DNA of 64,000 nucleotides from Dawidia soli. Its GTDB lineage: Bacteria > Bacteroidota > Bacteroidia > Cytophagales > Cyclobacteriaceae. The notes under the pieces are model-generated. The model was not told the origin of the DNA. It did not search any database and saw only the letters and a list, made by a program, of their open reading frames with translations. The stretch covers positions 1 to 64,000 of the forward strand of contig NZ_JAHESC010000023.1 of the NCBI RefSeq assembly GCF_018598185.1, in the 5' to 3' direction. This document shows, piece after piece, positions 49,222 through 62,354 of this stretch (positions are counted from its first letter, which is position 1; each line of letters starts with the position of its first letter). The position numbers and the translations under genes were made by a program.

Positions 49222-49446
49222 TCCAACTATATACTTTTTCCCTACTTAAGGAAAATATTTTCTGCCTTTCAGCCCTGAAAGGGCGTAATACAATAGCCCA
49301 GGCCAGAGCGACAGCGGAGGCCTGGGCAACAGGTAACACAGATACATAAGCCCTGAAAGGGCGTAACAATTTTTCTTCGCCCTCACATACACGGATTCGC
49401 CCACCCCATCCCCCAACTATATACTTTCCCCTACTTTTGGGGAAAC
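49222..49446. repeat. Paired REP-like element bracketed by a direct repeat, left of ilv
   Basis: AGCCCTGAAAGGGCGTAA occurs at 49271-49288 and again at 49349-49366. Between them GCCCAGGCC and GGCCTGGGC form a further hairpin. The whole 49268-49371 unit is matched at 57377-57469. Outside it the phrase CCAACTATATACTTT with a following hairpin CCC...GGGR is present twice, at about 49222-49256 and 49412-49446. The rest of 49006-49611 is non-coding and shows only copy E. Confidence 0.8.
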
Positions 49447-49611
49447 ATTCCAGCCTTCCCGAAAACGCTTGCGGAAGGAGGATGATCGGCGCAATCGAAA
49501 GCCTGTAACTGTCAACCTAACATTCGTTTTTGAGCTGATTTCGAAACATTTCCGGAAGTTTGCTTGAATGGTAAATGATAATTTGTGATAATTGTACTCG
49601 CACAGAATTTT

Positions 49612-49734
49612 ATGATGAAAGATTCTAAAATAACCGAACGATCGTTAAGCCTCACAGGGCTGATCAACGGTACTGTGCTCGTCATCGTCGTCATTCTCGT
49701 CGTGGTCAAACCCGCGGGGGCGATGGTGATTTAA
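49612..49734 (+). CDS. Branched-chain amino acid leader peptide (ilv attenuator)
   Basis: A 40-codon ORF from ATG 49612 (or 49615) to TAA 49734. Residues 22-32 read VLVIVVILVVV, eleven consecutive codons for the three branched-chain amino acids, followed by KPAGAMVI. This resembles the E. coli ilv leader peptide in logic. The stretch lies immediately upstream of a terminator and the ilvE start. When charged Val, Leu or Ile tRNA is scarce, the ribosome should stall at 49675-49707 and leave 49717-49730 free to pair. With plentiful tRNA it should reach the stop and cover that segment. I infer regulation by translation-coupled attenuation. Confidence 0.85.
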   Translation: MMKDSKITERSLSLTGLINGTVLVIVVILVVVKPAGAMVI

Positions 49735-49788
49735 GATTTTAAACAAGATATCACGAACCGCCCCGACTACTCGGGGCGGTTTTGTTTT
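49717..49788 (+). promoter_or_regulatory. Attenuator: antiterminator and terminator of the ilv operon
   Basis: The terminator is CCGCCCCGA-ctac-TCGGGGCGG followed by TTTTGTTTT (49758-49788). Its left arm CGCCCC (49759-49764) can instead pair with GGGGCG (49717-49722) at the end of the leader peptide ORF. GTGAT (49726-49730) pairs with ATCAC (49750-49754) inside the same alternative stem. The two structures are mutually exclusive, as attenuation requires. Both helices were found by reading, not by folding software. Confidence 0.85.
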
Positions 49789-49801
49789 ATACAGGCAACT
49801 A

Positions 49802-49821: not shown

Positions 49822-50709
49822 ATGTACTACACGAAAGACACGATCCTTTTCCTGAATGGGAAATTTATCAAGGCGGTCGATGCCCATATTGATCTGTACA
49901 GTCAGACGCTGCACTATGGCTTCGGAGCGTTCGAGGGGATCCGTGCCTATCAGACCATGAACGGCACGAAGGTCTTCAAGGCCTACGAGCACTTCGAGCG
50001 CCTCAAGAAAAGCTGCGCCCTGGTCGGCATTCCGTTTCAGTACGAAACCGAAGAGCTGGTGCAAATTGCCTATCAACTGTTAGAGAAGAACGACCTGTCG
50101 GATGCTTACATCCGTCCGCTGGTGTATGGCGGCGCCAACATGCAGCTGACACAAACAAACGAAGTATACCTCATGATGTGTGCGTGGGAGTGGGACAAGT
50201 ACCATGGCGACAAACATCTCAAGATGTGCATCTCGTCGTATCAGCGTCCGAACCCCGGTGCGCTGAAGGTCGAAGCCAAAGTAACCGGACATTATGTGAA
50301 CTCGATCCTGGCCACCAGCGAAGCCAAAGTACGCGGCTACGACGAAGCCCTCATGCTCGACATGAACGGCAACATCGCCGAAGCGCCCGGCGCCAACTTC
50401 TTCCTGGAGAAAGACGGTGTGTTGTACACGCCGGCCCTCGGCCATATCCTGCCGGGCATCACCCGGCAAACCGTCCTGAACATTTGCCGCGAGCTGGACA
50501 TCCCGGTAAAAGAAAAACAGCTCCGGCCCGAAGAGCTGGAAGCCGCCGACAGCGCCTTTTTGTGTGGCACCGCGGCCGAAATAGTAGGTATCGAGTCCGT
50601 TGATGCAAAACCTTTTAAGAAAGAATGGTTTGACAGTTTAGGGGCGACCGTACAGGAAGCTTACAAGTGTCAAGTATTGGAGAAATCATTTAGCTACGTC
50701 ATCATCTAG
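49822..50709 (+). CDS. ilvE: Branched-chain amino acid aminotransferase
   Basis: A 295-residue fold-type IV transaminase that converts 2-keto acids to Val, Leu and Ile, the last step of the pathway. HYGFGAFEGIRAY, then AKVTGHYVN with the PLP Lys153, then EAPGANFF and GHILPGITR, are the family signatures. It is the first structural gene of the ilv operon and starts six bases after the shared motif, itself downstream of the attenuator. Confidence 0.95.
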   Translation: MYYTKDTILFLNGKFIKAVDAHIDLYSQTLHYGFGAFEGIRAYQTMNGTKVFKAYEHFERLKKSCALVGIPFQYETEELVQIAYQLLEKNDLSDAYIRPLVYGGANMQLTQTNEVYLMMCAWEWDKYHGDKHLKMCISSYQRPNPGALKVEAKVTGHYVNSILATSEAKVRGYDEALMLDMNGNIAEAPGANFFLEKDGVLYTPALGHILPGITRQTVLNICRELDIPVKEKQLRPEELEAADSAFLCGTAAEIVGIESVDAKPFKKEWFDSLGATVQEAYKCQVLEKSFSYVII

Positions 50710-50723
50710 ACAACCAGATGGTC

Positions 50724-50768
50724 CGTGGAGGCGGAGTATTCAAGCTCGGAATACTCCTGCCGTCCACG
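50724..50768 (+). promoter_or_regulatory. Large imperfect hairpin between ilvE and ilvD
   Basis: CGTGGA (50724-50729) pairs with TCCACG (50763-50768), and GGAGTATTC (50733-50741) with GAATACTCC (50749-50757). No T run follows, so it is more likely an mRNA-stability or processing element than a terminator. Confidence 0.6.
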
Positions 50769-50848
50769 AGTGCCGGCGGTGATAAAGAGAAGAGAGATCA
50801 GCAGGGGAGAAAATTTTTTAAACTAAGGATCATTATATAGTCAACAAC

Positions 50849-52534
50849 GTGAGTACAGAATTGAATAAGTACAGTAAGACACTGACCCAGGACCCGACCC
50901 TACCTGCCGCACAGGCGATGCTCTACGGCATTGGCCTGACGGACGAAGACATGCAGAAGGCGCAGGTAGGCATCGTGAGCACGGGTTTCGACGGCAACAC
51001 CTGCAACATGCACCTCAACGGGCTGGCGCAGGATGTAAAGAAGTCGGTATGGGCGAGTGACCTGGTAGGATTGGTCTTCAACACCATCGGCGTCAGCGAC
51101 GGCATCAGCAACGGTACGGCTGGCATGCGTTATTCGCTGGTGAGCCGCGACATCATTGCCGATTCGATCGAAGCCGTGTGCGGCGCGCAATATTACGACG
51201 GCCTAGTCGCCATCATGGGCTGCGACAAGAACATGCCGGGTGCGCTCATCGCGATGGGCCGGTTGAACCGCCCCGCCCTCATGGTATACGGCGGCACGAT
51301 CGCCGGTGGCCATTACAAAGGCCAGGAACTGAACATCATCTCGTCGTTCGAAGCGCTCGGCAAAAAGCTCGCCGGCACCATCAGCGACGAGGATTATAAA
51401 GGCATCATCAAAAACTCCTGCCCCGGCGCCGGCGCCTGTGGGGGGATGTACACCGCCAACACCATGGCCTCGGCCATCGAAGCGATGGGCATGTCGCTGC
51501 CCAACTCTTCGTCTAACCCGGCGATTGACCCGTCGAAGAAAGAGGAATGCGCCGCCGTGGGCAAGGCGATTCACAACCTGCTGAAGCTGGACCTCAAGCC
51601 CCGCGACATCATGACGCGCAAGGCCTTCGAAAACGCCATCACGGTCGTCATGGCCACCGGCGGCTCGACAAACGCCGTCCTTCACCTCATCGCCATGGCC
51701 AAAGCCGTAGACGTAGAGCTTACCCAGGACGACTTCCAGAAGATCTCCGACCGCATCCCGCTGCTCGCCGACTTCAAGCCGAGCGGCACGCACCTCATGG
51801 GCGCATTGCACAAGGTTGGCGGCATGTCGTCGGTATTGAAGTACCTGTTGGAAAAAGGCTTCCTGCATGGCGACTGCATCACCGTCACCGGCAAGACCCT
51901 TGCTGAAAATGTGAAAGATGCACCGAGCCTCGTCTTCGGCGAAAACAACGTGATCTTCCCCGTAGAGACACCGCTCAAGCCCACCGCCCACTTACAGATC
52001 CTCTACGGCAACCTGGCCGAGAAAGGCTCCGTCGCCAAGATCACCGGCAAAGAAGGCGAACGCTTCAAAGGACCCGCCCGCGTCTTCAACGGCGAGTTTG
52101 AATTGATCGACGGCATCCAGAACGGCCGCGTAAAATCCGGTGACGTGGTCGTGATCCGCTACGTCGGACCGAAAGGCGCCCCCGGCATGCCCGAGATGCT
52201 GAAGCCCACGTCGGCCATCATGGGCTCGGGCCTGGGCAAGAGCGTGGCTATGATCACCGACGGTCGCTTCTCCGGCGGCTCGCACGGATTTGTGATCGGC
52301 CACATCGTACCCGAAGCCTTCGCCGGCGGCCTCATCGCCCTCGTGGAAGACGACGACCTCATTGAAATCGATATTACGAATCATTCCATCAACCTGTTGG
52401 TCGATGAGAAGACGATAGCCCTACGCAGAGCGGCGTGGAAACAACCCGCGCTGAACGTTAAGAATGGAGTTTTATGGAAGTATGCTAAACAAGTAAAAAC
52501 TGCTGCTGATGGATGCGTTACTGACGAAGAATAA
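50849..52534 (+). CDS. ilvD: Dihydroxy-acid dehydratase
   Basis: A 561-residue Fe-S dehydratase forming 2-keto-isovalerate and 2-keto-3-methylvalerate. The cluster ligands are in [15 protein letters not shown] and [15 protein letters not shown]; the C-terminus has the [10 protein letters not shown] signature. Start is GTG 50849 after an AG-rich leader; the next in-frame ATGs fall after the conserved N-terminus. Its end overlaps ilvB by 26 bases. Confidence 0.95.
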
Positions 52535-54275
52535 ACCGGCCGTCGCTGTAGCCAGCGAGGTTGAAACCGCCAAGAAGATCACGGGATCGGAAGTGCTGCT
52601 CAACTCGCTCGTGGCGGAAGGTGTTGACATAATTTTTGGTTACCCCGGCGGAGCCATTATGCCTGTATACGATGCGTTGTACGGCTATGCCGACCGCCTC
52701 AACCATATCCTCGTGCGCCACGAGCAAGGCGCCATACACGCCGCCCAGGGCTTTGCCCGCGTATCGGGCCGTACGGGTGTGGTGTTTGCCACCTCGGGTC
52801 CCGGTGCGACCAACCTGGTGACGGGTCTGGCCGATGCGCTGATCGACTCGACGCCGCTGGTCTGCATCACCGGCCAGGTGTTTGCGCACCTGCTGGGCAC
52901 GGATGCCTTCCAGGAAACCGATGTGGTCAATACTACTATTCCGGTCACGAAGTGGAATATCCAGGTGGCGGAAGCGAAGGACATTGCGCCGGCCGTGGCA
53001 AAGGCATTTTATATTGCCCGCACGGGCCGTCCCGGTCCGGTGCTGATCGATATCACCAAGAATGCGCAGAATGAAATGATCGCGGAGCAGCCCCACAAGA
53101 AGTGCGAGGAGATCCGTACCTATAAGCCGAAGCCGGTGCTGCAGCAAGCGCAGGTCGACAAGGCCGCCGAGCTGATCAACGGCGCCAAGCGCCCGTATAT
53201 CCTGGCAGGCCAGGGTGTCTTGCTGTCGGGTGCGACAGACGCGCTGGTGGCCCTCTCTGAGAAGACCGGCATACCGGTGGCCTGTACGTTGCTCGGACTG
53301 GGCGCTTTCCCGGCGGACCATCCCAACTATGTCGGCTACCTGGGCATGCACGGCAACTACGGCCCGAACATCAATACCAACGAATGCGACGTGCTGATCG
53401 GCATCGGTATGCGCTTTGACGACCGTGTCACAGGCAACGTGAGTAAGTACGCCAAGCAAGCGCAGGTGGTGCACATCGACATCGATAAGGCCGAGATCAA
53501 CAAGATCATCCCGACGGCGGCGTATGTGCATGCCGATGCGAAAGAAGCTATCCAGGCATTGCAGTCGAAGTGTAACGCCGGCAAGCATGCCGATTGGGTG
53601 GAGAGCTTCCACAAGCTGAATAAGATCGAATTCGACAAGGTCATACACCCCGAGTGTAACCCTTCGGGCAAGATCACCATGGGAGAAGTGATCAGCAACC
53701 TGTCGACGTTGTCGCACGGTGAGGCGATCGTCGTGACGGACGTAGGCCAGCACCAGATGGTGACCTCGCGTTATTATCAATACAAGAATCCGCGCACGAA
53801 CGTAACGTCAGGGGGAGCGGGTACCATGGGCTTCGCATTGCCGGCCGCGCTCGGCGCCAAGCTGGCGATACCGCAGAAGCAAGTCGTGGCCGTGATCGGC
53901 GACGGCGGTTTCCAGATGACGCTGCAAGAGCTGGGTACCATCATGCAATACGACATCCCTGTAAAGGTGATGGTGCTGAACAACAGCTTCCTGGGCATGG
54001 TGCGTCAGTGGCAGCAGCTGTTCCACGGCAAGCGTTATTCGTTCACCGAAATGACGAACCCCAACTTCATCAAGCTGGCAGAAGCCTATAGCATTAAAGC
54101 CCGTAAGGTGGAGGCACGCGAAGATCTACAAGACGCCCTGAAAGAAATGCTGGCTTCGAAGACCTCGTACTTCCTGGAAGTAGTAGTAGGCAAAGAAGAC
54201 AACGTATTCCCGATGGTACCGGCAGGGGCCGGCGTCGCCGATGTACTGCTGGAGGCACCGGAAGGCTGCAAGTAA
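52509..54275 (+). CDS. ilvB: Acetolactate synthase, large (catalytic) subunit
   Basis: A 588-residue ThDP enzyme. The catalytic glutamate is Glu72 in [12 protein letters not shown]. The FAD/linker domain is in the middle, and the ThDP-binding [12 protein letters not shown] to VLNN is near the C-terminus. It condenses pyruvate with pyruvate or 2-ketobutyrate. It overlaps ilvD and is followed by its regulatory subunit. Length and motifs are typical. Confidence 0.95.
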
Positions 54276-54306: not shown

Positions 54307-54603
54307 ATGAAACAGGATTTCACATTAGAGATACATTCGGATAACAACTTTTCGGTGATCAACCGGATCGTCAACATCCTGAACCGCCGCCGGGTGCGCA
54401 TTAAACGGTTGCTGGCCCACGAAGCGGAAGATGATTTTCGTCGCGGTACCGCCGTGTTGCTGCTGTTCGCGACGGAAGACATGATGGAAAAAGTAAAACA
54501 TCAGGTAGAAAAGCTCATAGAAGTAGAGCAGGCGTTGTATTATACCGGCAGCGCCTTGTACTGCGAGCTGAGCGCAAAACACAGCGTGATCGAAAACGCA
54601 TAA
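54307..54603 (+). CDS. ilvN: Acetolactate synthase, small (regulatory) subunit
   Basis: A 98-residue ACT-domain protein (FTLEIHSDNNFSVINRIVNILNRRRVRIKRL). It is short, about the size of the E. coli IlvN/IlvM type, and lacks the long C-terminal domain of IlvH. It should bind the large subunit and confer feedback by a branched-chain amino acid; whether the ligand is Val cannot be read. It starts 31 bases after ilvB. Confidence 0.9.
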   Translation: MKQDFTLEIHSDNNFSVINRIVNILNRRRVRIKRLLAHEAEDDFRRGTAVLLLFATEDMMEKVKHQVEKLIEVEQALYYTGSALYCELSAKHSVIENA

Positions 54604-54658: not shown

Positions 54659-55732
54659 ATGGCTAAGATTAATTTTGGCGGAACTATAGAAGAAGTAGTT
54701 ACACGGGAAGAGTTTCCGATGGAAAAGGCCCTGGACGTATTGAAGAACGAGACCATCGCCATCATCGGCTATGGCGTACAAGGCCCTGCACAGGCATTGA
54801 ACCTGCGCGACAACGGATTTAAAGTGATCGTAGGCCAACGCAAAGGCTCCAAGACCTGGGACAAGGCTGTAGAGCACGGCTGGGTACCGGGCGAAACGCT
54901 GTTCGAGATCGAAGAAGCCGCCAAGCGTGGTACCATCCTCGAGTTCCTGCTGTCAGACGCCGGCCAGATTGCCCTGTGGCCTACCATTAAGCCTTTCCTG
55001 ACCAAAGGTAAAACACTGTATTTCTCACACGGCTTTGGCATCACCTTCAAAGACCAGACCGGCATCGTGCCTCCGGCCGATATCGACGTAGTACTCGCTG
55101 CACCCAAAGGTTCAGGTACTTCGGTACGCCGTCTGTTCCTCCAGGGCAAAGGGATCAACTCCAGCTACGCCGTATTCCAGGATGCATCCGGTAACGCCAC
55201 ACAGAAGGCCATCGCCCTCGGTATCGGCGTAGGCTCAGGCTACCTGTTCCAGACAGATTTCAAGAAAGAAGTATATTCCGACCTGTCGGGCGAGCGTGGT
55301 ACACTCATGGGTGCTATCGCCGGTATCTTCGAAGCACAATACGAAGTACTGCGCGCCAACGGCCACTCACCGTCAGAAGCCTTCAACGAAACCGTAGAAG
55401 AGCTGACACAAAGCCTCATGCCCCTCGTAGCCGAGAACGGTATGGACTGGATGTATGCCAACTGCTCTACGACCGCACAACGCGGTGCGCTGGACTGGAA
55501 GAAAAAATTCAAAGCCGCTACCTTGCCTGTGTTCCAGGAACTGTACAAGAGCGTGGCGACCGGCGAAGAAGCCCGCCGTACGATCGATACCTGCAGCAAG
55601 CCGGATTACCGCGAGAAGCTTGCCGAAGAGCTGAAAGAGCTTCGCGAAAGCGAGCTCTGGCAGGCAGGCGCCGCGGTGCGCCAGCTGAGACCTGAAAAGA
55701 ACCAGGTGGAAGCCAGCATGATCAACTCATAA
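54659..55732 (+). CDS. ilvC: Ketol-acid reductoisomerase
   Basis: A 357-residue NADPH-dependent enzyme for the second step of the pathway. The dinucleotide motif GYGVQGPAQALNLRDNG (37-53) lies near the start. Metal-site segments GSGTSVRRLF, then DLSGERGTLMG and EAQYE, are present. Arg and Ser in the VGQRKGS stretch (about 57-63) fit NADPH preference. A strong terminator follows, so ilvA may be only partly co-transcribed. Confidence 0.95.
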   Translation: MAKINFGGTIEEVVTREEFPMEKALDVLKNETIAIIGYGVQGPAQALNLRDNGFKVIVGQRKGSKTWDKAVEHGWVPGETLFEIEEAAKRGTILEFLLSDAGQIALWPTIKPFLTKGKTLYFSHGFGITFKDQTGIVPPADIDVVLAAPKGSGTSVRRLFLQGKGINSSYAVFQDASGNATQKAIALGIGVGSGYLFQTDFKKEVYSDLSGERGTLMGAIAGIFEAQYEVLRANGHSPSEAFNETVEELTQSLMPLVAENGMDWMYANCSTTAQRGALDWKKKFKAATLPVFQELYKSVATGEEARRTIDTCSKPDYREKLAEELKELRESELWQAGAAVRQLRPEKNQVEASMINS

Positions 55733-55739
55733 TTCAGAT

Positions 55740-55775
55740 CAATGTGCAGGTAGAAAATACCTGCACATTGTTTTT
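55740..55775 (+). terminator. Terminator between ilvC and ilvA
   Basis: CAATGTGCAGGTA-gaaaa-TACCTGCACATTG, a perfect 13-bp stem, followed by TTTTT. It begins eight bases after the ilvC stop and ends 13 bases before ilvA. Confidence 0.85.
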
Positions 55776-55787
55776 ACGACAATACCC

Positions 55788-57041
55788 ATGGTATCAGATA
55801 AACAAACGGAAAGCCTCGACGTCAACGCAGCGGCCGCCGTGCTCAAGTCCATCGCGTTGAAGACCCCGTTGCAGTTCCACCGCAAGCTCTCCGAAAAATT
55901 CAAGGCGGAGGTCTACCTCAAGCGTGAAGACCTGCAGGTTGTTCGCTCGTACAAGCTGCGGGGCGCCTATAATCTCATTCAAAGCCTGACCGCCGACCAG
56001 CGCCAGCGCGGTGTGGTCTGCGCCAGCGCGGGCAACCACGCCCAGGGCGTAGCCTTCTCGTGCCGCCAGCTGGACATTCGCGGCGTGATCTATATGCCGG
56101 CCATTACGCCCAAGCAGAAGATCAACCAGGTGAAGATGTTCGGTGGCGAAAACATCGAGATCGTGCTGATCGGCGATACGTTTGACGAGTGCCAGGCACA
56201 TGCGCTGGCGTTTACGCAAGCCAACAACATGGTGTTTATTCCGCCGTTCGACCACCTCAAGGTGATCGAGGGGCAAGGTACTGTCGGCAAAGAAGTGCTC
56301 GACGAGCTGAGCGACATCGACTATATGTTTGTGCCGATCGGCGGCGGCGGTCTGTGCGCCGGCGTAGGGCAATATTTCAAACTGTTTTCACCGAAGACAA
56401 AGATCATCGGCGTGGAGCCCCTCGGTGCACCGTCGATGAAAGAAGCGCTGAAGGCCGGCCACCCGGTGGTGCTCGATACCATTCAACGCTTTGTAGACGG
56501 CGCTGCCGTAAAAAAGGTAGGCGACCTGACCTTTGCCCTGAGCAAAGACCTGCTGTCGGATATGCTGCTGGTGCCGGAAGGCAAGGTAAGCACGACGATC
56601 CTCCAGCTGTACAACGAAGATGCTATCGTGGCAGAGCCGGCGGGCGCATTGTCTATCGCCGCGCTGGAGCAGTATGCGGATCAGATCAAAGGCAAGAAGG
56701 TAGTATGTATCCTCAGCGGCGGTAACAACGACATCGACCGCATGCAGGAGATCAAAGAACGCTCGCTGCTGTATGAAGGTTTAAAACATTACTTTATCGT
56801 GCGTTTTGCGCAGCGCCCCGGCGCGTTGAAGCAATTCGTAAACGAGATCCTCGGCCCGACGGACGACATCGTTCGGTTCGAGTTCATCCAGAAGCACAAC
56901 AAAGAATCGGGGCCGGCGCTGATCGGCATCGAGCTGAAGTCGAAGGATGACTTTCATACGCTCATTGCCCGCATGGACAGCCACAAGCTGAACTATACGC
57001 TGGTGAACCAAAACGAGAACCTATTCGAATACCTGGTGTAA
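55788..57041 (+). CDS. ilvA: Threonine dehydratase
   Basis: A 417-residue PLP enzyme that converts threonine to 2-ketobutyrate for isoleucine. The Schiff-base Lys56 is in RSYKLRGAYN. The GGGGLCAGVG phosphate loop and an ACT-like C-terminal regulatory domain (about 335-417, starting HYFIVRFAQRPGALKQF) are visible. It has one such domain, which is shorter than the two of E. coli IlvA. It sits after a terminator, so its expression may be partly uncoupled. Confidence 0.9.
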   Translation: MVSDKQTESLDVNAAAAVLKSIALKTPLQFHRKLSEKFKAEVYLKREDLQVVRSYKLRGAYNLIQSLTADQRQRGVVCASAGNHAQGVAFSCRQLDIRGVIYMPAITPKQKINQVKMFGGENIEIVLIGDTFDECQAHALAFTQANNMVFIPPFDHLKVIEGQGTVGKEVLDELSDIDYMFVPIGGGGLCAGVGQYFKLFSPKTKIIGVEPLGAPSMKEALKAGHPVVLDTIQRFVDGAAVKKVGDLTFALSKDLLSDMLLVPEGKVSTTILQLYNEDAIVAEPAGALSIAALEQYADQIKGKKVVCILSGGNNDIDRMQEIKERSLLYEGLKHYFIVRFAQRPGALKQFVNEILGPTDDIVRFEFIQKHNKESGPALIGIELKSKDDFHTLIARMDSHKLNYTLVNQNENLFEYLV

Positions 57042-57376: not shown

Positions 57377-57469
57377 TTAGCCCTGAAAGGGCGAGACACA
57401 TCAGCCCAGGCTGTAGGCCTGGGTCTGTCACCGTAACCGAATGCATAGCCCTGAAAGGGCGTAACAATT
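57377..57469. repeat. Paired REP-like element, right of ilv operon
   Basis: AGCCCTGAAAGGGCG (about 57379-57393 and again about 57447-57461) flanks AGCCCAGGC-tgta-GGCCTGGG. This is the same architecture and order as the element at 49268-49371. The two lie on opposite sides of the ilv operon. Confidence 0.85.
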
Positions 57470-57841: not shown

Positions 57842-57878
57842 ACCGTCCCGATACCCTCGGGACGGTTTCGTTTTTTTT
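57842..57878 (+). terminator. Terminator in the leu operon leader (possible attenuator)
   Basis: ACCGTCCCGA-taccc-TCGGGACGGT followed by TTCG and a run of T, 80 bases before leuC. It occupies the position of an attenuator. I find no Leu-rich leader peptide, so the control signal is unknown. Confidence 0.7.
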
Positions 57879-61193: not shown

Positions 61194-62354
61194 ATGAGCA
61201 GAAAAATTGAAATCTTCGACACTACGCTGCGCGATGGCGAGCAAGTGCCCGGCTGTCAATTGTCAACCGAAGAAAAGGTCGTCATAGCACGGGAGCTTGA
61301 GCTACTCGGTGTAGATGTGATCGAGGCAGGTTTCCCGATCTCGAGCCCTGGCGACTTTCTTTCCGTGGTGGAGCTTTCCAAAGCGGTGAGCACCGGTATC
61401 TGTGCGCTGACCCGGTCTAAAAAAGAAGATATCGATGTGGCTGCCGAAGCCCTGCACCATGCGAAGCGTGGCCGGATCCATACAGGCATCGGTTCGTCGG
61501 ATATCCACATTAAAACCAAATTCAACAGCAGCCGCGAGAAGGTTCTCGAACAAGGCGTATGGGCCGTTAGTTATGCCAAGGCCAAGGGCTATGAAGTCGA
61601 GTTCTTTGCCGAAGACGCCGGCCGTGCCGACCTGGCCTTCCTGGCACAGATGGTGGAAGCCGTTATCGCTGCCGGTGCCGACGTGGTGAACATACCCGAC
61701 ACGACGGGCTACTGCCTGCCGCACCTGTATGGCAAACGCATTCAGTACCTGTTCGAGCATGTGAAGAACATTCACAAGGCTACGATCTCGGTGCATTGCC
61801 ACAACGACCTGGGCATGGCTACCGCCAACACCATGGCCGGCCTGATCGCCGGCGCGGGACAGGCCGAAGTGACCATCAACGGTATCGGCGAGCGCGCGGG
61901 CAACACGTCGCTGGAAGAAGTAGCGATGATCATCCGCACGCACAAAGACCTGGATTTACATACCAACATCGTTTCAGAGCGTCTTTACGGTGTCAGCAAC
62001 CTGGTGTCGGACATGATGCGCATGCCCGTGCAGCCCAACAAGGCCATCGTGGGGGCGAATGCGTTCGCGCACTCGTCGGGCATACACCAGGACGGCTTCC
62101 TGAAGAACTCGGAGAACTACGAGATCATCAACCCTTCCGACGTGGGCGTGCCGACATCGTCGATCGTGCTCACGGCCCGCAGCGGTCGCGCGGCGCTGAA
62201 GCACCGCCTGGAGTTACTGGGCTACCAGCCGAGCAAGCCCGAGCTGGATCAGCTGTACGAAGCATTCCTGATCGTGGCCGACGAAAAGAAAAATGTCAAC
62301 GACGCAGACCTGATGGTGATCGCCGCGAACACCTCCCTGCTGGTACAGAAATAG
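61194..62354 (+). CDS. leuA: 2-isopropylmalate synthase, short form without regulatory domain
   Basis: A 386-residue protein. The catalytic TIM barrel is complete: [12 protein letters not shown], the metal His pair HCHNDLGMA, and [14 protein letters not shown]. The subdomain region with [11 protein letters not shown] is also present. The C-terminal LeuA allosteric domain (about 120-130 residues in E. coli) is missing, so leucine feedback through it cannot occur. Homocitrate or citramalate synthase are alternatives; the linkage to leuCDB favours isopropylmalate. It ends with a terminator. Confidence 0.9.

Follow-up and report, generated by a model that had tools for sequence, protein, structure and literature searches.

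What controls the branched-chain amino acid genes of Dawidia soli, a member of the Bacteroidota? The window considered here, a 64-kb stretch of DNA analysed over its whole length, belongs to a genome of 7.5 Mb in 122 contigs. It contains the genes ilvE-ilvD-ilvB-ilvN-ilvC-ilvA, in that order, which serve the isoleucine/valine pathway, and ahead of them a short open reading frame (ORF) and a hairpin. A preliminary description, made from the letters of the sequence, had read this arrangement as an attenuator. Ribosome-mediated attenuation is textbook matter for enterobacteria; we consider it very probable that a classical transcription attenuator of this kind governs the operon.

Leader, terminator and competing pairings upstream of ilvE

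The features are collected in Table 1. Most of the pathway genes were assigned by protein-family matches over cut-off; ilvN had no NCBIfam match at 1e-10, so that its label, given as probable, comes from its placement between ilvB and ilvC, the sole basis for it. Two further structures lie inside the operon: an imperfect inverted repeat (GTCCGTGGAGGCGGAGTATTC...GAATACTCCTGCCGTCCACG), spotted by eye in the gap between ilvE and ilvD (50710-50848), and, at 55740-55770 in the gap between ilvC and ilvA, a 13-pair hairpin followed by TTTTTACGAC, which is possibly a partial terminator within the ilv operon.

Table 1. Positions of the ilv control elements and genes in the window, with the thr leader ORF of the same genome
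Feature	Position	Strand	Description or basis
Candidate promoter	49559-49596	+	TTTG/TTG near 49559-49566, with TAATTTG (49579-49585) or TAATTGTA (49589-49596); block conserved in six aligned congeners
Leader peptide ORF	49612-49734	+	40 codons, translated as MMKDSKITERSLSLTGLINGTVLVIVVILVVVKPAGAMVI, then stop
Regulatory run V22-V32	49675-49707	+	11 consecutive Val/Leu/Ile codons
Segment 1	49681-49692	+	1:2 hairpin with 49719-49730, over regulatory codons; fold
Segment 2	49717-49730	+	GGGGCG and GTGAT, in the last codons of the leader; fold, family tests
Segment 3	49750-49764	+	ATCAC and CGCCCC, pairs with segment 2; CGCCCC also in the 5' arm of the terminator; fold, family tests
Intrinsic terminator	49755-49789	+	3:4 hairpin 49755-49782 (12 pairs, 8 G-C), T-rich tail TGTTTTATAC to 49789
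ilvE, branched-chain aminotransferase	49822-50709	+	NF005146, TIGR01122 over cut-off
ilvD, dihydroxy-acid dehydratase	50849-52534	+	TIGR00110 over cut-off
ilvB, acetolactate synthase large subunit	52509-54275	+	TIGR00118 over cut-off
Probable ilvN, small subunit	54307-54603	+	position between ilvB and ilvC only
ilvC, ketol-acid reductoisomerase	54659-55732	+	TIGR00465 over cut-off
ilvA, threonine ammonia-lyase	55788-57041	+	NF006390, TIGR02079 over cut-off
Thr/Ile-rich leader ORF	L166:535-597		MATVVTMIITIIITITIITG; upstream of thrA in the genome of the window

The leader with its unbroken run of valine, leucine and isoleucine (I/L/V) codons is present as the preliminary description had it, and it is singular: runs of nine or more such codons occur nowhere else in any of the window's six frames, and on both strands it is the one place where at least eight of 12 codons are I/L/V and a terminator follows within 80 nt. 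The terminator announced for the region after the leader is equally plain, with a fold (49752-49788) at -22.9 kcal/mol, where shuffles average -8.8 and none of 200 was as good.

The mutually exclusive antiterminator that had been proposed could be located pair by pair: GGGGCG (49717-49722) with CGCCCC (49759-49764), and GTGAT (49726-49730) with ATCAC (49750-49754). The corresponding fold, 49708-49767, has an energy of -17.2 kcal/mol (shuffle mean -11.5; 6/200 shuffles as good). The preliminary description makes no mention of a 1:2 hairpin, whose fold, 49666-49734, reaches -24.4 kcal/mol (shuffle mean -18.8; 9/200 shuffles as good). Pairings 1:2 and 2:3 share 49719-49730, and 2:3 and 3:4 share 49759-49764; the three structures therefore exclude one another in the classical manner. 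Compared with synonymous-codon controls, the 1:2 hairpin of the window leader stands at z -2.8; among the 39 leaders folded in this work z is -1.64 or lower in just 11, and a conserved 1:2 hairpin was rejected as a defining part because it is not general.

Spacing is the remaining element of the arrangement. The usual footprint value places the leading edge of the ribosome 16 nt past the first base of the P-site codon. On this model, 10 of the 11 run codons leave segment 2 uncovered when they occupy the A site, which bears out the earlier statement that the spacing fits stalling. The same is true of 316/339 run codons in the 36 leaders with clear 2:3 pairing, and in all 36 a ribosome that has reached the stop codon stays short of the terminator hairpin. 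Between stop codon and hairpin lie 17-33 nt (median 22; 39 leaders).

How these parts would work, from transcript start and leader translation to termination in vivo and the response to starvation, can be predicted. RNA polymerase would start slightly before 49612, and a ribosome would follow on the leader ORF. With ample Val-, Leu- and Ile-tRNA, the ribosome would come to the stop codon and cover segment 2; the 3:4 terminator would form, and transcription would stop near 49789. If valine, leucine or isoleucine were short, the ribosome would stall in V22-V32 and leave segment 2 free; segment 2 would then pair with segment 3, the terminator would be blocked, and the ilv operon would be read. 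Were the leader untranslated, 1:2 and 3:4 could both form, and transcription would stop.

The candidate promoter of Table 1 would give a 5' UTR of about 10-25 nt ahead of the leader ATG. It fits TAnnTTTG only imperfectly; this is the -7 consensus for Bacteroidota according to passages of PMC9723704, which also state that Shine-Dalgarno sequences are absent in the phylum. A 9/12 sigma-70-like match lies at 49564-49592, and such matches occur at chance level (10 found vs 8.3 expected).

Curated Rfam families (release 15) include enterobacterial leaders and the T-box. At gathering score no family of that release matched over the leader; the sole match in the window was Acido-Lenti-1 at 49271-49326, outside it. 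As a separate observation, Acido-Lenti-1 matches at 49271-49326 and 57379-57423, both on the minus strand, and elsewhere reveal a dispersed repeat in the genome. When 150 of 1685 genome candidates were scored, there were at least 56 matches, at least 28 of them over the cut-off. The core, AGCCCTGAAAGGGC, is found four times in the window.

Conservation and rival readings

Among named relatives, Parachryseolinea silvisoli is nearest by IlvE (98% identity), followed by Ohtaekwangia koreensis and Chryseolinea species; P. silvisoli and O. koreensis are placed in the Fulvivirgaceae (Cytophagales, Bacteroidota). Retention of the terminator with loss of the leader codons, which the preliminary description had offered as a sign against itself, is not found in the genus: all seven congeners, six of which were aligned, keep both. 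The first ATG of the leader is retained in six of six aligned congeners, and the I/L/V content of the run is preserved while the bases vary. Within the leader ORF, gap lengths are divisible by 3 (3 nt in G001; 3 nt in L065; 3 + 6 nt in another alignment), unlike those in the linker, of 1, 2 or 5 nt. These in-frame gaps, which are few events, and the preserved I/L/V content point indirectly to translation of the leader. Nine stem pairs of the terminator are retained in 15/15 aligned species.

Might the arrangement be an accident, a hydrophobic ORF that happens to lie beside a hairpin? Short ORFs are, after all, common in intergenic DNA. A family search covered 118 genomes, in 47 of which IlvE is matched at 1e-60, at 48 places; 30 of these places and five further congeners make up a set of 35 loci, the other 18 places being left out. 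A locus passed if, within 450 nt upstream, an ORF with at least eight of 12 I/L/V codons was followed by a terminator 0-80 nt after it. The rule holds at 29/35 loci, compared with 0/1050 shuffles and 0/35 reverse strands; ahead of aminotransferase paralogs it holds in none of 12 regions, and among his/trp/menF/pabB loci at none of 27. With conservation of leader and terminator in the genus as well as in the family, and with one such place in the whole window, the probability of an accident is negligible.

The loci that fail are of several sorts. At L024 and L046 leader and hairpin are visible by eye, and the scanner failed to pick up the terminator; at L036 and L040, 6/12 and 7/12 codons are I/L/V; at L030 and L032 no leader or terminator was found upstream of ilvE. 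A second IlvE set comprised 19 loci, one of them (L073) without upstream DNA. The rule holds at 17 of the other 18 (nine repeat earlier loci, eight are new), and the sole failure, L074, is a distant Marinimicrobia homologue (29% identity) without such a leader. Seven of the eight new loci entered the fold and spacing tests; L070 passes the rule and was left out of the fold, cross-pairing and spacing tests.

A different reading would make the ORF the gene of a functional small hydrophobic membrane protein and the hairpin its own terminator, with a separate promoter for ilvE farther downstream. The hydrophobic character of the run agrees with this, as does a hairpin directly after the stop codon; the peptide itself does not. 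Its length ranges from 16 to about 50 residues among species, its sequence varies widely, and little beyond I/L/V content is preserved across families; moreover, its final codons tend to fit the terminator arm of their own species. Only 32 nt separate the T tract from the ilvE start, and leaders with His, Trp and Thr/Ile codons, described below, precede his, trp and thr genes. Such a protein is highly improbable, and the preferred reading remains that the ORF is a leader, with the attenuator acting on ilvE.

The antiterminator pairing was also followed across species. From 42 loci (35 + 7 new) 39 ORF-terminator pairs were obtained for fold tests, the 2:3 region being taken to begin 33 nt ahead of the last base of the stop codon and to run through the 5' arm of the terminator. 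The mean z for 2:3 folding is -2.18, and in 23/39 leaders at most 5/100 shuffles are as good; L036, L043 and L047, of the 39 folded, have no real 2:3 pairing. The check suggested at the outset, covariation of the leader in related genomes, gave a divided result: leader and terminator are conserved, while in the close clade covariation of pairs does not reach significance. In the 15 close species aligned, pairing of 2:3 amounts to 91.4%, and 59/500 shuffles reach its covariation score, there being little variation in either 2:3 or 3:4.

As the close clade is uninformative in this respect, a cross-species pairing test was used. Terminator arms vary by group (CCGCCCC, CGCCATTCC, GCCATCTTG, CACCATTCCT and others), and in many cases the last codons of the leader change with them. 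In 26 representatives, hand-picked for differing terminator arms and uncorrected for relatedness, the mean pairing energy of segment 2 is -14.4 kcal/mol with its own segment 3, vs -10.4 with those of others, and 0/10,000 permutations were as good. The own arm ranked first or second in 12/26 and 18th or worse in four (L035, L037, L043 and L047).

A further reading keeps the terminator and assigns its control elsewhere, to a metabolite-binding RNA, a T-box or a protein, with the leader ORF incidental. Better conservation of the 3:4 stem than of the peptide within the close clade would suit it. The I/L/V runs, however, are specific to one frame: at least eight of 12 codons are I/L/V in 37/39 runs in the leader frame and in 0/39 in the other two, a comparison in which the leader frame was preselected as best. 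The short gap between ORF and hairpin leaves little room for an aptamer, and the absence of an Rfam match over the leader at gathering score also speaks against this kind of control. It is very unlikely; control of the terminator by the translating ribosome accords with the frame of the run.

Leaders at other amino acid operons

If leaders of this kind are a habit of the genus, other biosynthetic operons might carry them, each with codons for its own product. Upstream of hisG, an ORF with HHHHH and then a terminator occur in 7/7 genus genomes (L131 and six congener loci); upstream of trpE, an ORF with WWW and then a terminator occur likewise in 7/7 (L133 and six congener loci). Antiterminators are not established for these leaders: in the 2:3 test of 14 his and trp leaders, at most 5/100 shuffles were as good in 1/14, and results were mostly not significant. 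Upstream of thrA, a Thr/Ile-rich ORF ending in ITIITG is found in 6/6 genomes with bifunctional thrA, a count that omits the seventh genus genome, in which there is a single-domain homologue alone. A clear intrinsic terminator before thrA was not found in five of the six genomes, and the sixth has one weak hairpin; the stretch 3' of the leader ORF is conserved, and the thr leader may work by another route. With leaders for the matching amino acid at three further operons, coincidence becomes implausible.

The leu genes of the window present a different picture. A leader peptide before leuC (57958) was considered and rejected: there is no leucine run, and the short ORF is interrupted by a stop in the congener G001. 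A strong terminator-like hairpin (57842-57866) lies ahead of leuC in 7/7 genus genomes, together with a conserved upstream block, around AACAATTCGTTGATG...TTAACTTTT...ATCTTCGTG, and without a Leu-rich leader. The leuA product (61194-62354) has 386 residues and matches only the first ~380 of the ~500 positions in bacterial LeuA profiles; judged by this match, LeuA seems to be without its C-terminal domain, which we take to be the regulatory one.

Distribution in the Bacteroidota and relation to known leaders

How widely is the ilv leader spread? An IlvD match was found in 209/296 genomes in a search of the phylum. From these 209 genomes, 89 upstream regions of ilvD were sampled, 700 or 1500 nt each (29 + 60 loci), partly hand-chosen to spread over families; family f17, which is the most frequent one in the more distant IlvD matches, was represented by one region. 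The survey addresses leaders near ilvD itself, and those before another operon head or more than 700 nt upstream would escape it. Thirty-five of the 89 regions pass, in 8 of the 26 families sampled, one pass being likely false: 6/7 in f1, 2/7 in f4, 4/8 in f5, 2/3 in f6, 13/27 in f7, 6/8 in f23, 1/1 in f50 and 1/1 in f26, the last of which (L183) is the one that looks false. In the other 18 families there was no pass among one to five regions each, mostly one to three. Of the controls, 1/890 shuffles and 1/89 reverse strands pass.

Lopatovskaya et al., in 2010, are said to have predicted classical attenuation in Bacteroidetes also. In the same year, according to passages of PMC2965389, no leader-peptide system was known to have been demonstrated beyond the Proteobacteria and Actinobacteria, to which that paper added the Firmicutes. 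Passages of PMC7366714 (2020) mention small ORFs resembling leader peptides in Bacteroides thetaiotaomicron, and passages of PMC9723704 (2021), in which no operon is named, report 'strong clues' for leader-peptide attenuation before amino acid biosynthesis operons of Flavobacterium psychrophilum; 'ilv' is absent from the main text of the latter paper. A literature search that covered few subscription journals led to no detailed account of a Bacteroidota ilv leader that we recognised. The preliminary description had thought a clear case in a Bacteroidota-type genome noteworthy; this overstates its rarity, given similar leaders in several Bacteroidota families and the passages of PMC9723704. The ilv leader is new as a described instance and ordinary in kind.

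Its main value lies in its belonging to a matched set of leaders (ilv, his, trp, perhaps thr) and in its occurrence in several Bacteroidota families, which together predict that transcription and translation are coupled in Bacteroidota. As a tentative extension, which we rate as possible without leaning towards it, ribosome-mediated attenuation might be a main form of control of amino acid synthesis in much of the phylum (with ilv, his, trp and thr covered in a single genome), and might have arisen independently of the proteobacterial leaders. If true, this would need transcription and translation to be tightly coupled in bacteria whose initiation does not depend on Shine-Dalgarno sequences. 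Each such leader is a natural sensor both of charged tRNA and of the closeness of ribosome and RNA polymerase. With candidates for ilv, his, trp and thr side by side in a Bacteroidota genome, that coupling would become directly testable. The leaders would also account for control of the ilv operon by an element that Rfam 15, at gathering score, does not recognise here.

The familiar counterpart is the ilvL attenuator of Escherichia coli ilvGMEDA, with its runs of Ile, Val and Leu codons, an intrinsic terminator and an alternative antiterminator. The likeness, with ilvL taken from general knowledge, is one of plan: a leader with an Ile/Val/Leu run, a terminator and an antiterminator before isoleucine/valine genes. 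It is a comparison of arrangement and not of sequence, and the gene order differs, ilvE coming first in D. soli. A further difference from E. coli is that the phylum of D. soli is reported, in passages of PMC9723704, to lack Shine-Dalgarno sequences. F. psychrophilum, for amino acid operons of which passages of the same paper propose leader-peptide attenuation, is of the same phylum as D. soli. The actinobacterial leaders of PMC1262725 and PMC10272879 belong to a different phylum and share the placing of a leader ORF before amino acid genes, the ilv operon among them in PMC10272879.
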